A DNA stretch of 64,000 nt. Origin: Gemmatimonadota bacterium. Lineage in GTDB: Bacteria > Gemmatimonadota > Gemmatimonadetes > Gemmatimonadales > Gemmatimonadaceae. A program made the position numbers and the translations under genes. This document shows positions 33,875 through 43,094 of this stretch, in pieces. Under the pieces are notes generated by a model. That model saw nothing but the letters and a program-made list of their open reading frames with translations, was not told the DNA's origin and ran no database searches. Numbering within the stretch: position 1 is the stretch's first letter; each line of letters starts with the position of its first letter. The stretch lies in contig JAJPIM010000026.1 in the NCBI GenBank assembly GCA_021324775.1, positions 62,001 through 126,000 on the forward strand. Direction: 5' to 3'.

Positions 33875-35415
33875 GACGGGCGGCGTGACCACTCCCGGCA
33901 ACTGTGAACGGGGACGACCTTGCCCGGATTCATCCGGCGCTCGGGATCGAACACCTCGCGAAGCCGGCACTGCGCAGCGAGCGAAGAAGGCGAGAAGATC
34001 AACTCCATGTATCCGATCTTGTCGAGCCCGACACCGTGCTCTCCGGTGATCGTCCCGCCCGCATCGACACAGATGCGCATGATCTCGCGCATGGCAAGGT
34101 CGACCCGGGCGGATTCATCGGCATCGTAGGCATTGTAGCCGATGTTGGGGTGCAGGTTGCCGTCGCCGGCGTGAAAGACATTGCATACCGTGACCCGGTG
34201 GCGGGTCGCGATGTCGCGAATCCGGGCGAGGACGGCCGGAAGCTGTGTGCGCGGGATGACCGCGTCCTGCACGACCAGATGGGATGAAACCCGGCCCATT
34301 GCACCGAACGCCTTTTTCCGGCCTTGCCAGAGACGCGCGCGGTCGGCGGGGTCTGACGCGATGCGGACGGTGCGAGCGCCGTGGGCGGTGCAGATCCGGG
34401 CGATGGTACCGGCATCGGTGTCGAGTCCCGCGGCCAGCCCGTCGACTTCGGCGAGCAGGACCGCCTCCGCGTCGGCCGGATATCCCGCCGCGTATATGGA
34501 TGCTTCCACCGCACGGATCGTGGGGCCGTCCATCATCTCGAGAGCGGCGGGCAGTATGCCGCATGCAATGATCGCCGACGTGGCGCGAGCCGCGTCATCC
34601 ATTGACATGAAATCGGCGAGCAGCGTTCGCACGGCCTGTGGGGCGCGGGTGAGCTTGACCGTCACATCGAGCGCCACGCCGAAGCATCCCTCCGAGCCGA
34701 CGAACGCGCCGAGCAGATCGTAGCCCGCGGATTCGGCTCCCGACGCGCCGGGCCCCAGCGTCACGACCTCGCCATCGCTCAGCACGGCCGTGACGCCCAG
34801 CACGTGATTGAGCGTGACGCCGTACTTGAGGCAATGCGGGCCGCCCGCATTCTCCGCGACATTGCCGCCGATCGTGCACGCGGCCTGGCTGGAGGGATCC
34901 GGCGCGTAGTAGAGACCGAACGGCGCGGCCGCCCGGGTGAGCGCGGCGTTGACGACGCCGGGCTCGACCACGGCAACCGCGTTCTCCGGGTCGAGCGACA
35001 GCACGCGGTGGAGCCGGTTGAGGCCGACCAGCACGACATCGTCCGCCAGTGCACCGCCCGACAGACCGGTACCTGCGCCCCGCGGCACGAATGGCGCGCC
35101 GTGTTCGGCGAGGACGAGCACGACGTCGATGAGCTGAGCGCGGTTCGCGGGGAACACCGCGAGGGAAGGGAACTTCCGGTATCCCGGTAACCCGTCGGCC
35201 GTGTACACGGCCAGCTCGCTGCGGCGACGAAGCACGCCGCGCGGCCCGACCACGGCTTCGAGCGCACGGGCGAGCGATGCCGCATCGATAGGCGGTGAGG
35301 GGTCGCTCCCGGCGCCCGGTGTCACGCCTCCTGCCTGGCCGCCCGCTGCCGCGAGAGCCGGGGCCGGCATCGCATCGGCCGGCGCGTCAGCCGGACGACT
35401 GTGGCTGGGGTCCAT
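33871..35415 (-). CDS. glcD: Glycolate oxidase subunit GlcD (FAD-linked)
   Basis: The catalytic 514-residue FAD oxidase converts glycolate to glyoxylate. FAD-domain motifs are PRGAGTGLSGGAL, CTIGGNVAENAGGPHCLKYGV and SEGCFGVALDVTVKL. The C-terminal domain has the catalytic-site segments CNVFHAGDGNLHPN and GTITGEHGVGLDK. The first 45 residues are a Pro/Ala-rich extension. An internal Met at 35370 is an alternative start that would avoid the 29-base overlap with the upstream Lon-domain gene. Confidence 0.93.
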   Translation of the reverse strand: MDPSHSRPADAPADAMPAPALAAAGGQAGGVTPGAGSDPSPPIDAASLARALEAVVGPRGVLRRRSELAVYTADGLPGYRKFPSLAVFPANRAQLIDVVLVLAEHGAPFVPRGAGTGLSGGALADDVVLVGLNRLHRVLSLDPENAVAVVEPGVVNAALTRAAAPFGLYYAPDPSSQAACTIGGNVAENAGGPHCLKYGVTLNHVLGVTAVLSDGEVVTLGPGASGAESAGYDLLGAFVGSEGCFGVALDVTVKLTRAPQAVRTLLADFMSMDDAARATSAIIACGILPAALEMMDGPTIRAVEASIYAAGYPADAEAVLLAEVDGLAAGLDTDAGTIARICTAHGARTVRIASDPADRARLWQGRKKAFGAMGRVSSHLVVQDAVIPRTQLPAVLARIRDIATRHRVTVCNVFHAGDGNLHPNIGYNAYDADESARVDLAMREIMRICVDAGGTITGEHGVGLDKIGYMELIFSPSSLAAQCRLREVFDPERRMNPGKVVPVHSCREWSRRPS

Positions 35416-36055
35416 GACCGTTGGACTTGGCGCGGATATGGACCACGGCCCGGGATTCGAGCGCCTCGACGGCGGGTGCCATCAACCTCTCGATCTCTCG
35501 CAAGCGCTCGGACGCCGAACGCGAGGCGAGGAGCCGCTGGCGAGCACTGGGGTCCATATCGATCACCGCCGCGATCGCAAACGCGAGCATGCCGGGATCC
35601 TCAGGCAGGTCGGGGAGGGCATCACTGTCATCGGCGAGACTGCGTGCCGCGGTGCCGACGCGCACGAACAGCGCGCGCACCGTATCGGCGAGGGGTGCGA
35701 GCGATCCCGCAGCCTCCGGCACATCGCCGACCTCGGTCACACGGCCCACATGGTACGGCATGCCGGTGTCTTCGAAGCGTTCCAGTGCGAAGCGTCCCGT
35801 GCCGATGACCAGAATGTTGGACCGTCCATCCGGCAGCATCTCCGCGCGCTCGACTCGCGCGATGCACCCGACCTGTCCGGGCGGAATATGCCGCTCGGCG
35901 GTATCGTCGGGACGGTACAGGATCCCGAACCGCCGGTCGCCCGCGAGGCAATCCGCCAGCATGCGGCGATACCGTGGCTCGATGATGTGCAGCGGGAGGT
36001 GCACGCCGGGGAAGAGCACGAGGCGCAGCGGGAACAGCGGGAGTTCCGAGACCAC
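35387..36055 (-). CDS. Lon N-terminal (LON substrate-binding) domain protein
   Basis: This 222-residue protein is made of only the LON/PUA-like domain without the AAA+ or protease parts. It starts ELPLFPLRLVLFPGVHLPLHIIEPRYRRML, read here as the family opening, and has GCIARVERAEMLPDGRSNILVIGTGRF. Such stand-alone proteins are common, but their role is poorly defined; peptide or substrate binding is inferred. It overlaps the 5' end of GlcD by 29 bases and starts 12 bases after the large glycosyltransferase gene. Confidence 0.88.
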   Translation of the reverse strand: MVSELPLFPLRLVLFPGVHLPLHIIEPRYRRMLADCLAGDRRFGILYRPDDTAERHIPPGQVGCIARVERAEMLPDGRSNILVIGTGRFALERFEDTGMPYHVGRVTEVGDVPEAAGSLAPLADTVRALFVRVGTAARSLADDSDALPDLPEDPGMLAFAIAAVIDMDPSARQRLLASRSASERLREIERLMAPAVEALESRAVVHIRAKSNGHGPQPQSSG

Positions 36056-36067
36056 GTCACCTCCGGG

Positions 36068-39000
36068 TTACGACGCGACTGGCAGGCGCACCGTCGCTTT
36101 TCGCTCGAGTTGGCCCCACCCGACGCCGCGTCCCTGGAACGCGGCCTTGAATGAGCGCACCACCACCCAGTACATGAGCTGCCGGTACGCGAAGCGCTGG
36201 ATCAGGATGAGCCACGTGAGGGACTTGTCTTCCCCGGGCTCCATGAGGAAGGCGAGCGCCGCGGCCAGCCAGTCCACGAACAGGAACACCGCGTAGTATG
36301 TAAACACATGCGCCAGGCTCGTGAGCGCATAGGTCGTCCCGTGTTGATACCGGGTCAGGACGATGGACAACAGACTGTAGGCGAACATCAGATCCGCCAG
36401 CGGCGAGATCGCGGGGAGCAGCAATTGGAACAGCCACGTGTTGGGCAGGGCCGCCCAGCCGAGCGATCCATAGCGCGCCCGGAAGAGCGTGGCCCGGTAT
36501 TTCCACGCGCACTGGAGCGTCCCGAACGACCAGCGGAACCGCTGCTTGGTGAGGGCGCGAAAGGTGTCCGGCGCCTCCGTATAGCCGATCGCGCCGTCGG
36601 CGTACGCGATCGAGTGTCCGGCCTGCCGGATGCTGAGCGTGAGGTCCTGATCCTCGGCCAGCGTGTCGTTGCGGAACCCGCCGGCGGTTTCCACGAGCGA
36701 CTTTCGCCACGCCCCGACCGCGCCGGGCACGACCGTGATACCGTTCAGCATCGAGAACGCGCGCCGGTCCAGGTTCTGGCTGGTGACGTATTCGAGCGCC
36801 TGCCACCGCGTGACGAGATTGACGCGATTGCCCACCTTGGCGTTCCCGGCAACGGCGCCGACGCGGGCGTTGGCGAGCGGCTCGACCAGCTCGGCGATCG
36901 TGTCGGCGGCGAAGATCGTGTCGGCGTCGAGCGCGATGATGATCTCATATCGTGCGCGCGACAGCCCGGCATTGAGGGCGCTCGCCTTTCCGCCGTTCTC
37001 CTTGCGATACACCGAGACGGTGCGTGAATCCGCATAACTCTCGCGGACGATCTGATACGTGTTGTCCGCCGACCCGTCGTCGACGACGATGATTTCAATC
37101 GGACCATCGTAGCGCTGGGCCACCAGGCTCGCGATCGTCTTGAGGATGACCTTTCCTTCGTTGTACGCGGGAATGATGACCGTGACGGGCGGGGCGAACC
37201 GCGTGGGCACTCCGCGCCGCTGATGGCGCATGAGGCGCTGCAGGATGGCGAGCGGGGCGATGAGGAAGAGCCGTCCGATGCCGAGGACGACGGCCGCCAT
37301 GAAGATCCAGTACAGTGCGAGCTCGCCGATGCCCAGGGCGGCCCAGCCGGCGAGCCGCGCGACGCGGCTGGCCTCGTTGACCGTCGCCAGCGGCGGCATG
37401 GCGTCCTGACGGGAGATCCCGACGAGCTGAGACAGGAGGACGAGCGTGTCACCGCGGGCGCGGAGCGAATCGATGATCGCGCCCAGTGCCGCCACCGTGT
37501 GCGCCCGGTCGCCGCCGCCGTCGTGCAGCAGCACCACGTTGCCCGTGTCGCGGCCGGACATCGTGAGCTTGATGATCGAGTCGACCGGGATGCGCTGCCA
37601 GTCCTCGGAGTCGTCGCGCAGGCCCACGGTATAGTAGCCTTTGCGCGTGGCGATCCCGACCGGCTCGAGTTCATCCGGCGTGGTCGGTGATGCATCCCCG
37701 AAGTACGGCGGGCGGAAGAACGCCGTGCGGTGGTCGAGCACCGATTCGATGAGGCTCTCGTTGGCGTCGAGCTCGAATCGCGTCCGCTGGTCCGACACCA
37801 GAGCGAGATTCGGATGCGAGTAGGTATGATTCCCGATCTCGTGCCCTTCGTCGTAGATGCGGCGCGTCAGCAGGATGTGCGTGTCGACATTCTCGCCGAC
37901 GACGAAGAACGTGGCGGGCGCGTGCCGTGCGCGGAGCGTGTCGAGGATCATGGGCGTCCACGTTCCGTCCGGCCCATCGTCGAACGTGAGCGCGACCTCG
38001 TGCTCGCGCTGTCCGTAGCGGTCCACGACGTAGGGTGTCGAGTACGCGGTCAGTGAGTCGCGATCGATCAGACCCGACGCGGGGTCGACACCGACGAGGC
38101 GGCGGCCGGAATTGGGCCAATCCCGGATCCGGAGGATGTCGCCGCCGCTGTCCGGCTTCTCGCCTTTGCGGCAACCGGCTCCGCCCGCGCACACCACATC
38201 ATTGATGAACTCCACATCGTAGCCGGGCGGCACGACCTGGAGGCTGTCCGGCTGGCCATCGAGGCCACTGCGCCCCAGCACGGACCACAGCGACGCGTCT
38301 TCCTCACCGAGCCGCCAGATGGCCTCGCCGGCGACGCCCAACTCGCGACCGACCCGCAACTCGTTGTACGCGGTCACGCCGTCGAGGTACCAGACGACGT
38401 GGTCCACCGAATCCGGATCGGTCCACGCGACATAGGGATTGAGCGCGATGGGGTCGAAGTGGATCGGCGCGTGGTGGTCGCGCGCCGCCTGCATCGTTTC
38501 CTGGAACGTCATCGCTTCGGGCGGGCTGCCGTCGTCGTGCCAGTCGTATCCGTATGCCCCGACCATGAAGATCACCTTCTCGCGCGGCACCGCCGCCACG
38601 ATGTCGCGGGCGCGATCGGTGTAGAACTGCTGGCTCGCGACGGGTCCTGGTGCGCCGCCGCCGTAATGCTCGTCGAACAGCATGGCGATGACGTAGTCCG
38701 TTACAGCTGCGATCCGCTGTAGCTCGCGCGTCGTGGTGTAGGACGGCACCGCGGCGGTGACGATGCGCTTGAGGGGGTTGAGGGCCACGCGGAGTGCCGC
38801 GGCGAACTGCAGGGCCGAGCCGCGCAGGTCCTCCGGGATGTCCTCGAAGTCGATCGTGACGCCGGCGAGCGAGTCGCGCACCACTTCGTCCCGGAGTTGT
38901 CCGACGGCGCGGGCACGCGCCTCCGGCGAGCGCAGGAACGTGCGCAGCGCGGCCACGTTGAACCGCTTCGCGGTCGGTCCGGTCGTCCGGCGGTCGAAAT

Positions 39001-39562
39001 TGCTGACCATGAGCAGAATCGCCGGTGGCGTCTGCACCCCTGGTTTGCGGACAACGTCGAAGACCCGGCGGTTGATCTCGAAATCGATCGAGTCGCCAGC
39101 AGGCGCCAGGAACGACCATTCGCACACCACCCAGTCGAGATCGTCGATGTGCTGGATCAGCGAGGCCAGCGAGTTGTCGGCCCAGTTGACAAAAAATCCC
39201 GCTACGATCGGGTTTGCCGGCGTGCCGCGCCGCGCGATGAGGGCGCTCCCCCCGGGGGGTGCATGGCGTCCGTGTCTCGCGGGCGGCGCCGGGCGGAAAG
39301 CGTGCGCGAGGCTCCGGCGGATGGCGAGGCGTTCGCGCTGGTCGCGCGTGAACGCCACCGGCGGCAACAGCTTATGATCGATGGGCAGCGCCGGCACGAG
39401 GGGTGGAATCGCCACGCCGACGATGAGCAGCGCCGCCAGCGCCATGGTGACCGCGCCCACGACGATCCACAGCCGGCGCCATCCGCGGGCTCTCCTGCCG
39501 AGCGGATCGAGAAAGACCGGCTGCGACGGCGTGTGTGTTGGAACGGGCGGGGGCGTAGGCAT
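36068..39562 (-). CDS. Trimodular polysaccharide synthase: GH18-like + NodB deacetylase + GT2 glycosyltransferase
   Basis: This single 1164-residue chain has several parts. A signal anchor lies at about 31-53. A GH18-like hydrolase domain (115-470) has catalytic-type GVTIDFED at 234-241. A CE4 deacetylase follows, with TFDDGPDG at 525, HTYSHP at 579 and RPPYFGD at 617. After a membrane segment (about 745-775) comes a processive GT2 domain with DDGSAD at 828, ALDAD at 877, EDQD at 970 and QRFRW at 1007. Three or four C-terminal membrane helices close it. It should polymerise, export and trim or deacetylate a beta-linked, probably N-acetylglucosamine-based exopolysaccharide. The hydrolase and esterase would face outward and the GT2 inward. 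Confidence 0.9.
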   Translation of the reverse strand: MPTPPPVPTHTPSQPVFLDPLGRRARGWRRLWIVVGAVTMALAALLIVGVAIPPLVPALPIDHKLLPPVAFTRDQRERLAIRRSLAHAFRPAPPARHGRHAPPGGSALIARRGTPANPIVAGFFVNWADNSLASLIQHIDDLDWVVCEWSFLAPAGDSIDFEINRRVFDVVRKPGVQTPPAILLMVSNFDRRTTGPTAKRFNVAALRTFLRSPEARARAVGQLRDEVVRDSLAGVTIDFEDIPEDLRGSALQFAAALRVALNPLKRIVTAAVPSYTTTRELQRIAAVTDYVIAMLFDEHYGGGAPGPVASQQFYTDRARDIVAAVPREKVIFMVGAYGYDWHDDGSPPEAMTFQETMQAARDHHAPIHFDPIALNPYVAWTDPDSVDHVVWYLDGVTAYNELRVGRELGVAGEAIWRLGEEDASLWSVLGRSGLDGQPDSLQVVPPGYDVEFINDVVCAGGAGCRKGEKPDSGGDILRIRDWPNSGRRLVGVDPASGLIDRDSLTAYSTPYVVDRYGQREHEVALTFDDGPDGTWTPMILDTLRARHAPATFFVVGENVDTHILLTRRIYDEGHEIGNHTYSHPNLALVSDQRTRFELDANESLIESVLDHRTAFFRPPYFGDASPTTPDELEPVGIATRKGYYTVGLRDDSEDWQRIPVDSIIKLTMSGRDTGNVVLLHDGGGDRAHTVAALGAIIDSLRARGDTLVLLSQLVGISRQDAMPPLATVNEASRVARLAGWAALGIGELALYWIFMAAVVLGIGRLFLIAPLAILQRLMRHQRRGVPTRFAPPVTVIIPAYNEGKVILKTIASLVAQRYDGPIEIIVVDDGSADNTYQIVRESYADSRTVSVYRKENGGKASALNAGLSRARYEIIIALDADTIFAADTIAELVEPLANARVGAVAGNAKVGNRVNLVTRWQALEYVTSQNLDRRAFSMLNGITVVPGAVGAWRKSLVETAGGFRNDTLAEDQDLTLSIRQAGHSIAYADGAIGYTEAPDTFRALTKQRFRWSFGTLQCAWKYRATLFRARYGSLGWAALPNTWLFQLLLPAISPLADLMFAYSLLSIVLTRYQHGTTYALTSLAHVFTYYAVFLFVDWLAAALAFLMEPGEDKSLTWLILIQRFAYRQLMYWVVVRSFKAAFQGRGVGWGQLERKATVRLPVAS

Positions 39563-39754: not shown

Positions 39755-40159
39755 TCAGGCGGCCTCGACGATGCGATGCACCAGCGACCGCAACTCGGAG
39801 AGCTCGAAGGGTTTCTGAAGAACGGGGCACGAGGTGCGGCGCACGAAGTCGGCGGCCTCTTCGGACACGGTGTCGCCGGTCGCGACGATCAGGCGGCGCA
39901 GCAGTGCGGGGCGTTCGGCCTTCAGTCGCTCGTGCAGCTCCGAGCCCGAGCATCCGGGCATCCGGAGGTCGCAGATGATCAAGTCGAAGTGCGGCGCAGG
40001 TCCCGTGGCCGGGATCAGCCTCTCGAGTGCCTTGCGCCCGTCGGTGGCTTCCTCGACCTGCCAGCCTTCGCGAGCGAGGCACCGCCGCAGTGCCATACGG
40101 ATCGAGGGCTCGTCGTCAATGACGAGCGCGACCTGCCTGGCGGGAGCCGCGTCAGGCAG
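39755..40159 (-). CDS. Single-domain response regulator, 3' partner of the sigma factor gene
   Basis: This CheY-like receiver has VIDDEPS, phosphoacceptor Asp in ICDLRMPG, Thr in IVATGD and Lys in LQKPFELSEL, so phosphorylation should be intact. There is no output domain. The start is unusual. The only in-frame ATG/GTG/TTG upstream of the fold is a GTG at 40252, which puts 101 bases inside the sigma gene and adds a non-homologous extension. The alternative is a CTG at 40159 overlapping the sigma stop, giving 134 residues, the normal length. I show the latter. Its partner kinase is unknown; coupling suggests control of, or with, the sigma factor. Confidence 0.78.
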   Translation of the reverse strand: MPDAAPARQVALVIDDEPSIRMALRRCLAREGWQVEEATDGRKALERLIPATGPAPHFDLIICDLRMPGCSGSELHERLKAERPALLRRLIVATGDTVSEEAADFVRRTSCPVLQKPFELSELRSLVHRIVEAA

Positions 40160-41042
40160 CCCAGAACCCCGCGAGCGCGGATCCGTCGGGTGATTCGCGC
40201 AGCTTCTCGAATGCGCGCTCGCGGATCTGGCGGATCCGCTCCCGCGTGACACCGAGCAACGCGCCGATCTTCTCGAGCGTCATCGCCTCGGAGCCTTCCT
40301 CGAGGCCGTAGTACAGATAGAGAATCTTGCGCTCGCGGGGCGTCAGATACTTCCGGAACACGCGATCGATGAACTCGCGCATCAACTTGAAGTCGGTGAC
40401 ATCCTCGATCTCACCGCCATCCACGCCCGCGAATCGCTCGCCGAGCGTGCACGCTTCACGATCCGCGCGATCGATCGGCGCATCGAGCGAAATTTCCGTG
40501 GACGACATCTGGCGGGAGGACCGGACCTGCTCCGGCGTCTCCTCGATCAGCCGGCCGATCTCGTGATCCGTGGGATCCCGCTTGAGCACTTGCGCGAGCA
40601 CCGTCTCGGCGCGCGCCAGCTTGATGAGTTGCGAGTTCTGATTGAGCGGGATGCGGACGGACCGTGTCTGTTCGGCGAGCGCCTTGAGGACGGCCTGCCG
40701 GACCCACCACACGGCGTACGAGATGAACTTCACGCCCTGATCGGGATCGAACTTGCGCACGGCTTTGAGCAGTCCTTCGTTGCCGATGGCCACGAGCTCG
40801 CTCAGATCGAGACCGTGTCCCTGATATTTCTTGACGTAGGAAATGACGAAGCGGAGGTTCGCGGTGACGAGCCGCTCGGCGGCCAGCTCATCGCCGCGCT
40901 GCGCGCGCCGGGCGAGCCGCCGCTCTTCTTCGGCGTCCTGGATCAGTGGGAGCTTTTGTATGTCCTGCAAGTACTGATCGAAAGCGGTCGAGGGCGAGTT
41001 GCGGAAGTATCCCTTGGACCTGCTCTCGGTCGCTTGCTGCAT
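40152..41042 (-). CDS. Short RpoD-like sigma-70 factor (Bacteroidetes-type)
   Basis: The 296-residue sigma factor has region 1.2 (FDQYLQDIQKLPLI), region 2 (LRFVISYVKKY, NEGLLKAVRKFDPDQGVKF, YAVWWVRQAVLKALAEQ), region 3 (RSVRIPLNQ) and region 4 (LTPRERKILYLYYG, TLEKIGALLGVTRERIRQI). Region 1.1 and the non-conserved insert are absent, as in the ~287-residue housekeeping RpoD of Bacteroidetes. It may therefore be the primary sigma factor or a close group-2 paralogue. A strong promoter lies 146-174 bases upstream. The stop is shared with the start region of a receiver gene. Confidence 0.9.
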   Translation of the reverse strand: MQQATESRSKGYFRNSPSTAFDQYLQDIQKLPLIQDAEEERRLARRAQRGDELAAERLVTANLRFVISYVKKYQGHGLDLSELVAIGNEGLLKAVRKFDPDQGVKFISYAVWWVRQAVLKALAEQTRSVRIPLNQNSQLIKLARAETVLAQVLKRDPTDHEIGRLIEETPEQVRSSRQMSSTEISLDAPIDRADREACTLGERFAGVDGGEIEDVTDFKLMREFIDRVFRKYLTPRERKILYLYYGLEEGSEAMTLEKIGALLGVTRERIRQIRERAFEKLRESPDGSALAGFWAA

Positions 41043-41154: not shown

Positions 41155-41188
41155 TGCGGCGGAGAGCCGCTCCCTTTGAGCCGCCGCA
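41155..41188 (-). promoter_or_regulatory. Hairpin at the 5' end of the sigma transcript
   Basis: TGCGGCGG (minus strand, 41188-41181) pairs with CCGCCGCA (41162-41155) around an 18-base loop that contains AAAGGGAG. It begins at the promoter -10, so it would form the very start of the mRNA leader. Confidence 0.45.
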
Positions 41189-41216
41189 GTGTAACAACGT
41201 GAACAGATGGCGTCAA
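41188..41216 (-). promoter_or_regulatory. Sigma-70 promoter for the sigma factor gene
   Basis: On the minus strand TTGACG (41216-41211) and TACACT (41193-41188) are separated by exactly 17 bases. This is one of the best promoter matches in the window. The predicted start near 41181 gives a leader of about 140 bases. Confidence 0.7.
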
Positions 41217-41457: not shown

Positions 41458-42555
41458 TCAGGCAAGCGCCTCGCGCACAAACGCATCGGGCAGCGCGATG
41501 GTCCAGCCGGCGCCGGCGCCGGCCATCTCCCCGATCGCGTGGGGGAGCGCGTATTCGACCGTGCCGGCACGGACTTTCTTGTCCGAATGTGTGTGGAGGA
41601 CCAGCACCGGTCCCTCGATCCCGGGCGGTGCGGTCGTGGGGAGACCGGCCCGGTCGAGCGCACTGCACACCTGGTCGGTGATCCCGCACACTGCCGCTCC
41701 CGACAGTTCGGCCAGGCGGCATTCGATCGCCATGCCGATCGCGACCGCTTCCCCATGCAGCACGGTGAACCCGCTCGCCGCTTCCACGGCGTGGCCGATC
41801 GTGTGCCCGAAGTTGAGAATCTTGCGGCGTCCCTGCTCGCGGGCATCGGCGGCGACGATCGCGGACTTGATCGCAATGCTTCCGGCGATCAGCGCTTCCA
41901 TCTCGGAGCTGGTGGCGCCGCCCGCCTCCAGAAGAACTGGCAGGTCCGACTCGACACGCGCGAAGTACGCGGCGTCGGCGATTACGCCGTGCTTGATCCC
42001 TTCCGCCAAACCCGCGCGCAGCTCCCGCGGCGGCAACGTCGCCAGCACCGCGGGGTCGACCACCACCGCGGCCGGCGGATGAAACGCACCGACGAGATTT
42101 TTTCCGGCAGGCGTGTCGACCGCGGTCTTGCCGCCGATCGCCGCATCGATCATCGCGAGCAACGTGGTCGGCACCTGGATCACGGGAATGCCGCGCATGT
42201 ATGTCGCGGCGACGAATCCCGCCATGTCGCCGGCGACGCCGCCGCCGAGCGCGATGACCGTCGTGTCGCGTCCGCAGCCGAGCGCCAGCATCTCATCGGT
42301 GAGCCGCGCCCATGTCTCGCGTGTCTTGGCGGCCTCGCCGTGCGGCATGACGAGCACGCTGGCCGTGCGCCGCGGCCCGAATGACGCGACGACCCGCGCC
42401 GCGTAGAGCGGTGCCACGTGGTCATCGGTGATGACGACGTACCGGTGGGCGGGAGCGGCCGTCTCGGCCCGCGCGCCGAGCGTATCCAGCGCGCCCGAAG
42501 CCACCGTGATCCCGGGATCGGCCATCACGGCCGCCGGCGATCCGGCAGCTACCAC
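41458..42555 (-). CDS. aroB: 3-Dehydroquinate synthase AroB
   Basis: The second enzyme of the shikimate pathway, NAD+- and zinc-dependent. It is 365 residues from a GTG at 42555, which has GGAGAGG just upstream and overlaps the adenosyltransferase stop region. An ATG at 42525 is the alternative. Motifs: ALGGGVAGDMAGFVAATYMRG, QVPTTLLAMIDAAIGGKTAVD split by the NAD fold, GLAEGIKHGVI, and zinc-ligand histidines in NFGHTIGHAVE and LHGEAVAIGM. It is coupled to the upstream cobalamin gene. Confidence 0.93.
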   Translation of the reverse strand: MVAAGSPAAVMADPGITVASGALDTLGARAETAAPAHRYVVITDDHVAPLYAARVVASFGPRRTASVLVMPHGEAAKTRETWARLTDEMLALGCGRDTTVIALGGGVAGDMAGFVAATYMRGIPVIQVPTTLLAMIDAAIGGKTAVDTPAGKNLVGAFHPPAAVVVDPAVLATLPPRELRAGLAEGIKHGVIADAAYFARVESDLPVLLEAGGATSSEMEALIAGSIAIKSAIVAADAREQGRRKILNFGHTIGHAVEAASGFTVLHGEAVAIGMAIECRLAELSGAAVCGITDQVCSALDRAGLPTTAPPGIEGPVLVLHTHSDKKVRAGTVEYALPHAIGEMAGAGAGWTIALPDAFVREALA

Positions 42556-43094
42556 GTGACCTCTCCAGCGCCTACGCGATGCGACGCTACCCGGGCGAGC
42601 ACGAAGAGCAGATCCGAGAGGCGATTGAGGTAGATGCTGACGAGAGGAGGGAGCTCCACCGTCCGGGAGAGCTGCACGACGCGGCGCTCGGCGCGGCGGC
42701 ACACCGTCCGGGCGACGTGCAGCGCGGCGGACTTCGGGGTGCCGCCCGGCAGGATGAACGCGGTGAGCGGCGGCAGCTCGCTCTCGCCGGCGTCGATTGC
42801 GTGCTCGAGCTGCGCGATGCGGCCGGCGTCGATCCGCGCCTTGGCGAGATGTTCCTGCATCTTCTCGCGCTTCGGGGTGGCGAGGAGGGCGCCGAGGCTG
42901 AACAGATCGCGCTGGACGGCGACCAGGACCTCATCGATCCGCGGCATGGGATCCGTCGCCCGCGCGAATCCCACGGCGGCATTCAACTCATCCACCTCTC
43001 CGTAGGCCTCGACGCGGAGATCGTCCTTCCCCACCCGCCCGCCGCCGAAGAGACCCGTCTCGCCGGCGTCGCCGGTCCGAGTGTAGATCTTCAT
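42549..43094 (-). CDS. PduO-type cob(I)alamin adenosyltransferase
   Basis: This 181-residue enzyme transfers adenosyl from ATP to cob(I)alamin to make coenzyme B12. The N-terminal ATP-binding motif YTRTGDAGETGLFGG is diagnostic, followed by EAYGEVDELNAAVG, RAERRVVQL and the C-terminal YLNRLSDLLFVLAR helix. Length is normal for the family. It implies at least one adenosylcobalamin-dependent enzyme elsewhere in the genome and fits with the Ni/Co permease at 9151. Confidence 0.93.
   Translation of the reverse strand: MKIYTRTGDAGETGLFGGGRVGKDDLRVEAYGEVDELNAAVGFARATDPMPRIDEVLVAVQRDLFSLGALLATPKREKMQEHLAKARIDAGRIAQLEHAIDAGESELPPLTAFILPGGTPKSAALHVARTVCRRAERRVVQLSRTVELPPLVSIYLNRLSDLLFVLARVASHRVGAGEVTW

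Follow-up and report, generated by a model that had tools for sequence, protein, structure and literature searches.

The window, a 64,000-nucleotide stretch from a 4.19 Mb draft genome, carries on its minus strand a sigma factor gene followed by a gene for a response-regulator receiver, the frame of which runs back into the 3' end of the sigma gene. The features of this locus, from the downstream to the upstream side, are as follows.

From about 35307 downward: glcD-like gene, after the LON-like gene; located by tblastn, with the Pfam identity taken from the query protein.
35408 to 36007, minus strand: LON substrate-binding-domain-like gene; located by tblastn, with the Pfam identity taken from the query protein.
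36068 to 39562, minus strand: next gene downstream of the receiver, 1164 aa, with GH18-like, polysaccharide deacetylase and GT2 glycosyltransferase parts.
39755 to 40135, minus strand: receiver core with its stop codon, a single-domain response regulator; D8, D56 and K108 invariant, D7 nearly so.
39755 to 40252, minus strand: receiver frame of 165 aa as listed from a GTG start; Pfam Response_reg.
40136 to 40252, minus strand: extension of the receiver frame into the sigma 3' end; open, and showing no sign of receiver-code constraint where it overlaps the sigma gene.
40152 to 40154, minus strand: sigma stop codon, TGA; no strong hairpin in the following 100 bases.
40152 to 41042, minus strand: RpoD-family alternative sigma gene, 296 aa, with regions 1.2, 2, 3 and 4 and no region 1.1 match.
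40157 to 40159, minus strand: CTG at -5 from the sigma stop; also present in genus-mate G017, CCG in genus-mate G044.
40250 to 40252, minus strand: GTG at -98 from the sigma stop, named as a start by the earlier note; not a start codon in either genus-mate.
41188 to 41216, minus strand: sigma-70-like promoter match (9 of 12, with an extended -10) ahead of the sigma gene; a consensus match only.
41458 to 42702, minus strand: aroB (3-dehydroquinate synthase), the upstream neighbor family-wide.

The sigma factor and its paralogs

The sigma reading frame opens with ATG, and its product matches the Pfam sigma70 models for regions 1.2, 2, 3, and 4, each above cut-off. The presence of all four regions places it with the RpoD-like alternative sigma factors of the group 2 type. 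The earlier note had called it a Bacteroidetes-style short RpoD and a putative primary sigma factor. However, the host genome encodes four RpoD-type sigma factors, and with the RpoD model TIGR02393 the best score went to the protein encoded on contig C32 (266 bits), followed by those of C9 (229 bits), the window (202 bits), and C10 (166 bits), all below the cut-off of 354 bits. The C32 protein (304 aa) also gave the stronger matches to solved sigma factors, with 255 bits vs 195 bits for the window sigma against the best solved SigA and about 225 bits vs about 135 bits against E. coli RpoD. One gene flanking the C32 sigma encodes a signal peptidase and the other is presumably rimO. In a tree of 43 rows, for which the tool gave a long-branch warning, C32 and its counterparts grouped with Bacteroidota sigmas, which we take to be primary, and the window type formed a separate clade (support 100/99 for both groups).

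The window sigma is therefore neither the best match to primary RpoD/SigA proteins in its own genome nor grouped with those of related phyla, and as the C32 paralog scores far better with primary sigmas and groups with Bacteroidota, we take the window sigma to be an alternative sigma factor. Another rpoD serving as the primary sigma was one of the two outcomes that the earlier note said would refute it, and the comparison points to that outcome: "primary sigma factor" is a misnomer for the window gene, and it is the C32 gene that is of the Bacteroidetes style in this genome. The view that went with those descriptions, direct control of a housekeeping sigma by the overlapping receiver, draws on a short RpoD-like sigma being joined to a receiver but must contend with a C32 paralog of the primary type, and it is scarcely credible.

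The C9 and C10 genes (loci L069 and L071) encode two more RpoD-like sigmas, for which the RpoS model scored highest in NCBIfam (250 and 193 bits, respectively, below its cut-off). The host genome thus holds three alternative RpoD-type sigmas. MzaA, the sigma of the MZA anti-phage system, was considered as an identity for the window sigma and rejected (190.8 bits vs a curated cut-off of 800); the PADLOC match to MzaA was confined to the C-terminal sigma portion of that profile, and the window protein is not a member.

Matches to the window sigma at E below 1e-100 were found in 140 of 148 family genomes, a set drawn from a larger group and including many drafts; in G036, among the genomes lacking such a match, the sigma gene is cut by a contig edge. 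Orthologs of 62–82% identity were present in 40 sampled loci from other families of the class, and the six genomes of another class that were searched gave only paralog-level matches. As judged by these comparisons, the window type is an alternative sigma factor of the RpoD family that the class as a whole has retained. A literature search, with subscription journals mostly outside its scope, returned no paper evidently on this sigma or its receiver.

The receiver and its pairing with the sigma gene

The receiver frame matches Pfam Response_reg (PF00072) at 70.2 bits (cut-off 30.2). This is the sole domain in its 165 aa, with no output or kinase domain, and the product is thus a single-domain response regulator. 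Across 21 aligned receivers D8, D56, and K108 (core numbering) are invariant and D7 is nearly so, and hence the receiver appears phosphorylatable; in the window row T86 precedes the invariant G87 D88. The domain match and the phosphorylation residues together make it a member of the receiver family. For the three pairs of genus members pN/pS of the core was 0.121, 0.365, and 0.359 in its own frame vs values of 1.6 to 3.9 when read in the other two frames (the G017 core holds two N). The receiver is a genuine gene, and purifying selection on it is seen in its own frame alone. Its best NCBIfam matches are hybrid histidine kinases of the EspA/EspC type (80.6 and 73.8 bits). Identity with RssB was rejected, since with the curated RssB models the window receiver scored 46.8 bits vs a cut-off of 329 (PRK10693) and 42 bits vs one of 700.

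The neighborhood of the sigma gene was compared in 78 family loci from 32 genera plus 40 loci from other families of the class. Loci were picked one or two per genus first and then mainly from receiver-bearing genera, so per-locus counts over-weight the latter; genera g8, g11, and g27 were left out of the sample, and the sequence downstream of sigma is short at L195 (262 bases) and L064 (873 bases). A single receiver clade lies downstream of sigma in 42 of the 78 family loci. It takes the form of a lone receiver in 32 (13 genera) and of a hybrid histidine kinase ending in a receiver of the same clade in 10 (5 genera); the G016 locus, which has the hybrid kinase, carries a lone receiver as well. 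Neither form follows sigma in the remaining 36 family loci, and no clade member was found downstream of sigma in the 40 loci from other families. The earlier note had named a non-conserved neighbor as a ground for giving up the link. The neighbor is conserved, the clade being beside sigma in 18 of the 32 sampled family genera. Across the loci compared, the conserved feature is this pairing, which is more interesting than the overlap.

The 36 loci lacking a clade member indicate that the sigma does not need the receiver. Upstream of sigma, aroB, a cobalamin adenosyltransferase gene, and often a protein kinase gene are kept. Downstream, LON-like and glcD-like genes are the usual right-hand neighbors of this sigma in the order: in sister families f2 and f3 sigma is followed mostly by a LON-domain gene and/or a glcD-like oxidase gene, and in the family of the window a slot opens between sigma and these genes. 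As this slot also receives a glycosyltransferase, DAGK-like, or LON-domain gene, it may simply tolerate insertions. Note that glcD, glcE, dagk, lonN, and GT are query labels with Pfam support for the query proteins; the gene names glcD and glcE for the oxidase-like neighbors are our assumption. Throughout the order (families f1 to f3), glcD/glcE-like oxidase genes are linked to this sigma, a possible clue to its regulon. A gene of the type found at 36068–39562 directly follows sigma in g10, g20, and part of g14, where the receiver is absent; the GH18-like part of the window gene scored 25.9 bits, below cut-off.

To define the clade beyond the sigma locus, model A1, built on 21 syntenic receivers that score high by construction, was used to scan 59 family genomes. 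Forty-two matches were obtained at 122 bits or more, the next match being at 111 bits, and 28 of the 42 adjoin sigma (two of them beside a sigma gene cut by a contig edge). Adjacency was found for 22 of 27 lone receivers vs 6 of 15 kinase-fused receivers, the latter class being defined, where uninspected, by an open frame over 300 aa or a kinase core; five lone members lie away from sigma. Two clade receivers away from sigma, L214 and L215, have a remotely similar histidine kinase core (28% identity) nearby, making possible kinase-receiver pairs. The clade is separate from 30 receivers of the host genome (of 59 in that genome) with support of 100/100. The G057 lone receiver nests among the kinase receivers, indicating that lone and kinase-fused forms have interchanged. 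Outside the family, hits to the receiver clade scored 108–160 bits (f2) and 118 bits (a single genome of f5) and lay mostly within large open frames, as in hybrid kinases. In the sigma tree (one row per genus and class, 48 of 98 rows, f2 and f3 being reduced to ten genera) a clade member is present in every row closest to the midpoint root (g4, g16, g31, and g17), but the root is for drawing only and the forks are weakly supported. Early presence of the clade and its repeated loss would fit this weakly supported pattern.

The G014 and L048 hybrid kinases have PAS, GAF, HisKA, HATPase, and receiver domains. Those in the slot at L048, L047, L038, L050, and L068 (five genera) are candidate sensors for the sigma pathway.

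That clade receivers stand at the C-terminus of hybrid kinases, beside sigma and elsewhere, raises the possibility that the window receiver serves a hybrid kinase as phosphorelay shuttle or phosphate sink and makes no contact with the sigma, the adjacency then reflecting a shared signal or useful co-expression. A single-domain receiver acting as the phosphate hub of a stress-response pathway is described for MrrA in the abstract of PMC5964349. However, the host genome yielded no second clade member (the next receiver scored 89 bits vs 187) and no clear cognate or clearly orthologous kinase (best match 41% over query residues 736–1013), and adjacency of 22 of the 27 lone receivers to sigma is beyond what a free shuttle needs. 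We regard such a role as rather unlikely.

The overlap and expression of the receiver

The two genes overlap by 101 bases (40152–40252), and the open receiver frame reaches back 125 bases from the sigma stop. It had been claimed that the only canonical receiver start lies 101 bases inside the sigma gene, and this holds: the GTG at 40250–40252 is the sole ATG, GTG, or TTG upstream of the core. The alternative offered, a CTG on the sigma stop, holds in part, as the CTG is present but falls just short of the TGA, within the final two codons of sigma. Among NTG and ATH codons ahead of the core, only this GTG (-98) and this CTG (-5) were found in the window, and in-frame ATG, GTG, TTG, and CTG are all absent from the sigma stop to the receiver core (from about 40135).

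The genus-mates differ in their candidate starts, G017 having TTG at -56, GTG at -44, CTG at -5, and CTG at +19, and G044 having GTG at -44 alone. Thus, the GTG at 40252 was rejected as a conserved start. No NTG or ATH start is common to the three genus members, and coupling is therefore not pinned to one codon. Past the sigma stop, an in-frame ATG, GTG, or TTG is available to 29 of 29 lone receivers outside the genus vs 0 of 3 within it.

Substitutions in the overlap (18, 14, and 20 in the three genus pairs) are all synonymous for sigma. The receiver-frame pN of the overlap was 0.26, 0.20, and 0.29 vs +1-frame means of 0.15, 0.22, and 0.21 elsewhere in sigma. As this is not clearly a reduction, we rejected the overlap as a dual-coding sequence. 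An open +1 frame at the 3' end of sigma also occurs in the relatives L060 and L067, the receivers of which have their own starts after sigma, and overlap length is thus weak evidence. Hence, the evidence is against the overlap, described in the earlier note as a fusion, being a conserved functional device: it is confined to one genus, lacks a start codon common to its three members, and carries no extra constraint, and all 29 lone receivers outside the genus have a start codon available past the sigma stop.

The receiver is in the +1 frame relative to sigma in all three genus members, although the gap from the sigma stop to the receiver core, as derived from the model, is 7, 19, and 67 bases. 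Maintenance of the frame despite these gaps indicates that the indels preserved the frame of a start lying no further downstream than the sigma stop, and it is very likely that within the genus translation of the receiver would enter there. The overlap is best viewed as a lineage-specific loss of spacer that probably left translational coupling of some kind. Programmed +1 frameshifting at the sigma stop, which would give a sigma-receiver fusion protein in the window genus, could be read from the +1 position at the TGA in all three members and from their lack of a common start codon. However, the codon ahead of the stop is GCC, which should re-pair poorly in the +1 frame, the base following the TGA varies (C, G, T), and the overlap code is unconstrained, all of which make a fusion protein very unlikely.

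In 62 of the 78 family loci a hairpin within the 100 bases past sigma exceeds all coding controls of the same gene. A terminator-like hairpin in this interval was found in none of the three members of the window genus, and a scan of the window minus strand from 41600 to 39400 gave no terminator-like site. The hairpin is missing from 13 of 32 lone-receiver loci vs 3 of 46 others (Fisher p 0.0004) and, counted by genus, from 5 of 13 vs 0 of 23 (p 0.003), both tests ignoring shared ancestry. The more frequent loss with lone receivers suggests that co-transcription arose more than once.

This loss also bears on chance hitchhiking, in which the slot between sigma and the glycolate-oxidase-like genes accepts insertions, the family acquired the receiver early and is now losing it, and deletion left the overlap as a neutral scar. 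Enrichment of hairpin loss in lone-receiver lineages argues against it, as do selection on the receiver and the small number of lone receivers away from sigma (5 of 27). On the other side are the varied contents of the slot, the 36 of 78 loci that lack the clade, the LON-domain and glcD-like genes right after sigma in order-level relatives, and the lack of constraint on the overlap. On balance we consider hitchhiking unlikely.

Interpretation and closest known systems

The interpretation starts from observed facts, namely the gene identities, the intact phosphorylation residues, selection on the receiver, the conserved linkage, and the absence of hairpin and spacer. The arrangement is real and its parts are ordinary. 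With purifying selection acting on the core in its own frame and the same clade recurring across the family, the arrangement exceeds chance.

The reading we favor, to which we assign a probability of roughly 0.45, is a sigma-linked two-component output co-expressed with its sigma. In this family the receiver clade adjoins an alternative sigma in two forms, one standing alone and the other making up the C-terminal domain of a hybrid kinase. The window genus would have lost the spacer, the terminator-like hairpin, and the receiver's own start, such that the sigma mRNA would also serve the receiver, translated in its +1 frame. Translational coupling, by a start or re-start at a codon near or inside the sigma 3' end, is the most likely means. 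A histidine kinase encoded elsewhere in the genome would phosphorylate the receiver at D56, and by contact between the two proteins the receiver could then set sigma activity or stability, in the manner of RssB with RpoS and PorX with SigP, while co-expression would maintain the sigma:receiver ratio.

Control of the sigma by the receiver, argued by analogy with those systems, is plausible, and we put it forward as a tentative proposal. The fullest version is doubtful: a family-specific, phosphorylation-gated lone receiver, related to the receiver of an adjacent hybrid kinase, would bind and control an RpoD-class alternative sigma and would have become locked to it in the genus, at a fixed ratio, by non-ATG restart or slippage at the sigma stop.

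Few response regulators, such as RssB and PorX, are known to us to control sigma factors directly. A receiver clade tied to one RpoD-type sigma would add a testable case and give a lead to the role of the sigma in a family for which few regulatory studies exist. Moreover, the hybrid kinase, the lone receiver with its own start, and the receiver run into sigma form a natural series for the coupling of a two-component system to a sigma gene. RssB has an effector domain and PorX carries a further domain, whereas the window receiver stands alone.

In the Porphyromonas gingivalis report (PMC4800418), PorX binds SigP directly, by SPR and co-immunoprecipitation, and the presence of SigP needs PorX. 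The likeness lies in a response regulator with a sigma link and a kinase encoded elsewhere, although receiver-sigma contact is a proposal for the window. As described there, SigP is an ECF sigma whereas the window sigma is of the RpoD type, and the locus numbers of porX (PGN_1019) and sigP (PGN_0274) are far apart whereas the window genes overlap. In Escherichia coli, RssB hands RpoS to ClpXP, according to the abstracts of PMC7226468 and PMC4428439. This system shares with the window a response regulator and an alternative sigma of the RpoD family, action on the sigma again being a proposal in our case; as those sources describe it, RssB works via ClpXP, whereas the window receiver lacks a second domain. 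The receivers of the EspA/EspC-type hybrid histidine kinases of myxobacteria are the best NCBIfam match of the window receiver, which falls far below the curated cut-offs of 1200 and 1400 bits and lacks the kinase part. In Caulobacter, MrrA, as presented in the abstract of PMC5964349, transfers phosphate to PhyK and on to PhyR. MrrA resembles the window receiver as a single-domain response regulator, its feeding of a sigma-controlled stress response being a feature of MrrA; its route is phosphotransfer, the abstract does not include contact with a sigma factor, and it belongs to a different phylum.
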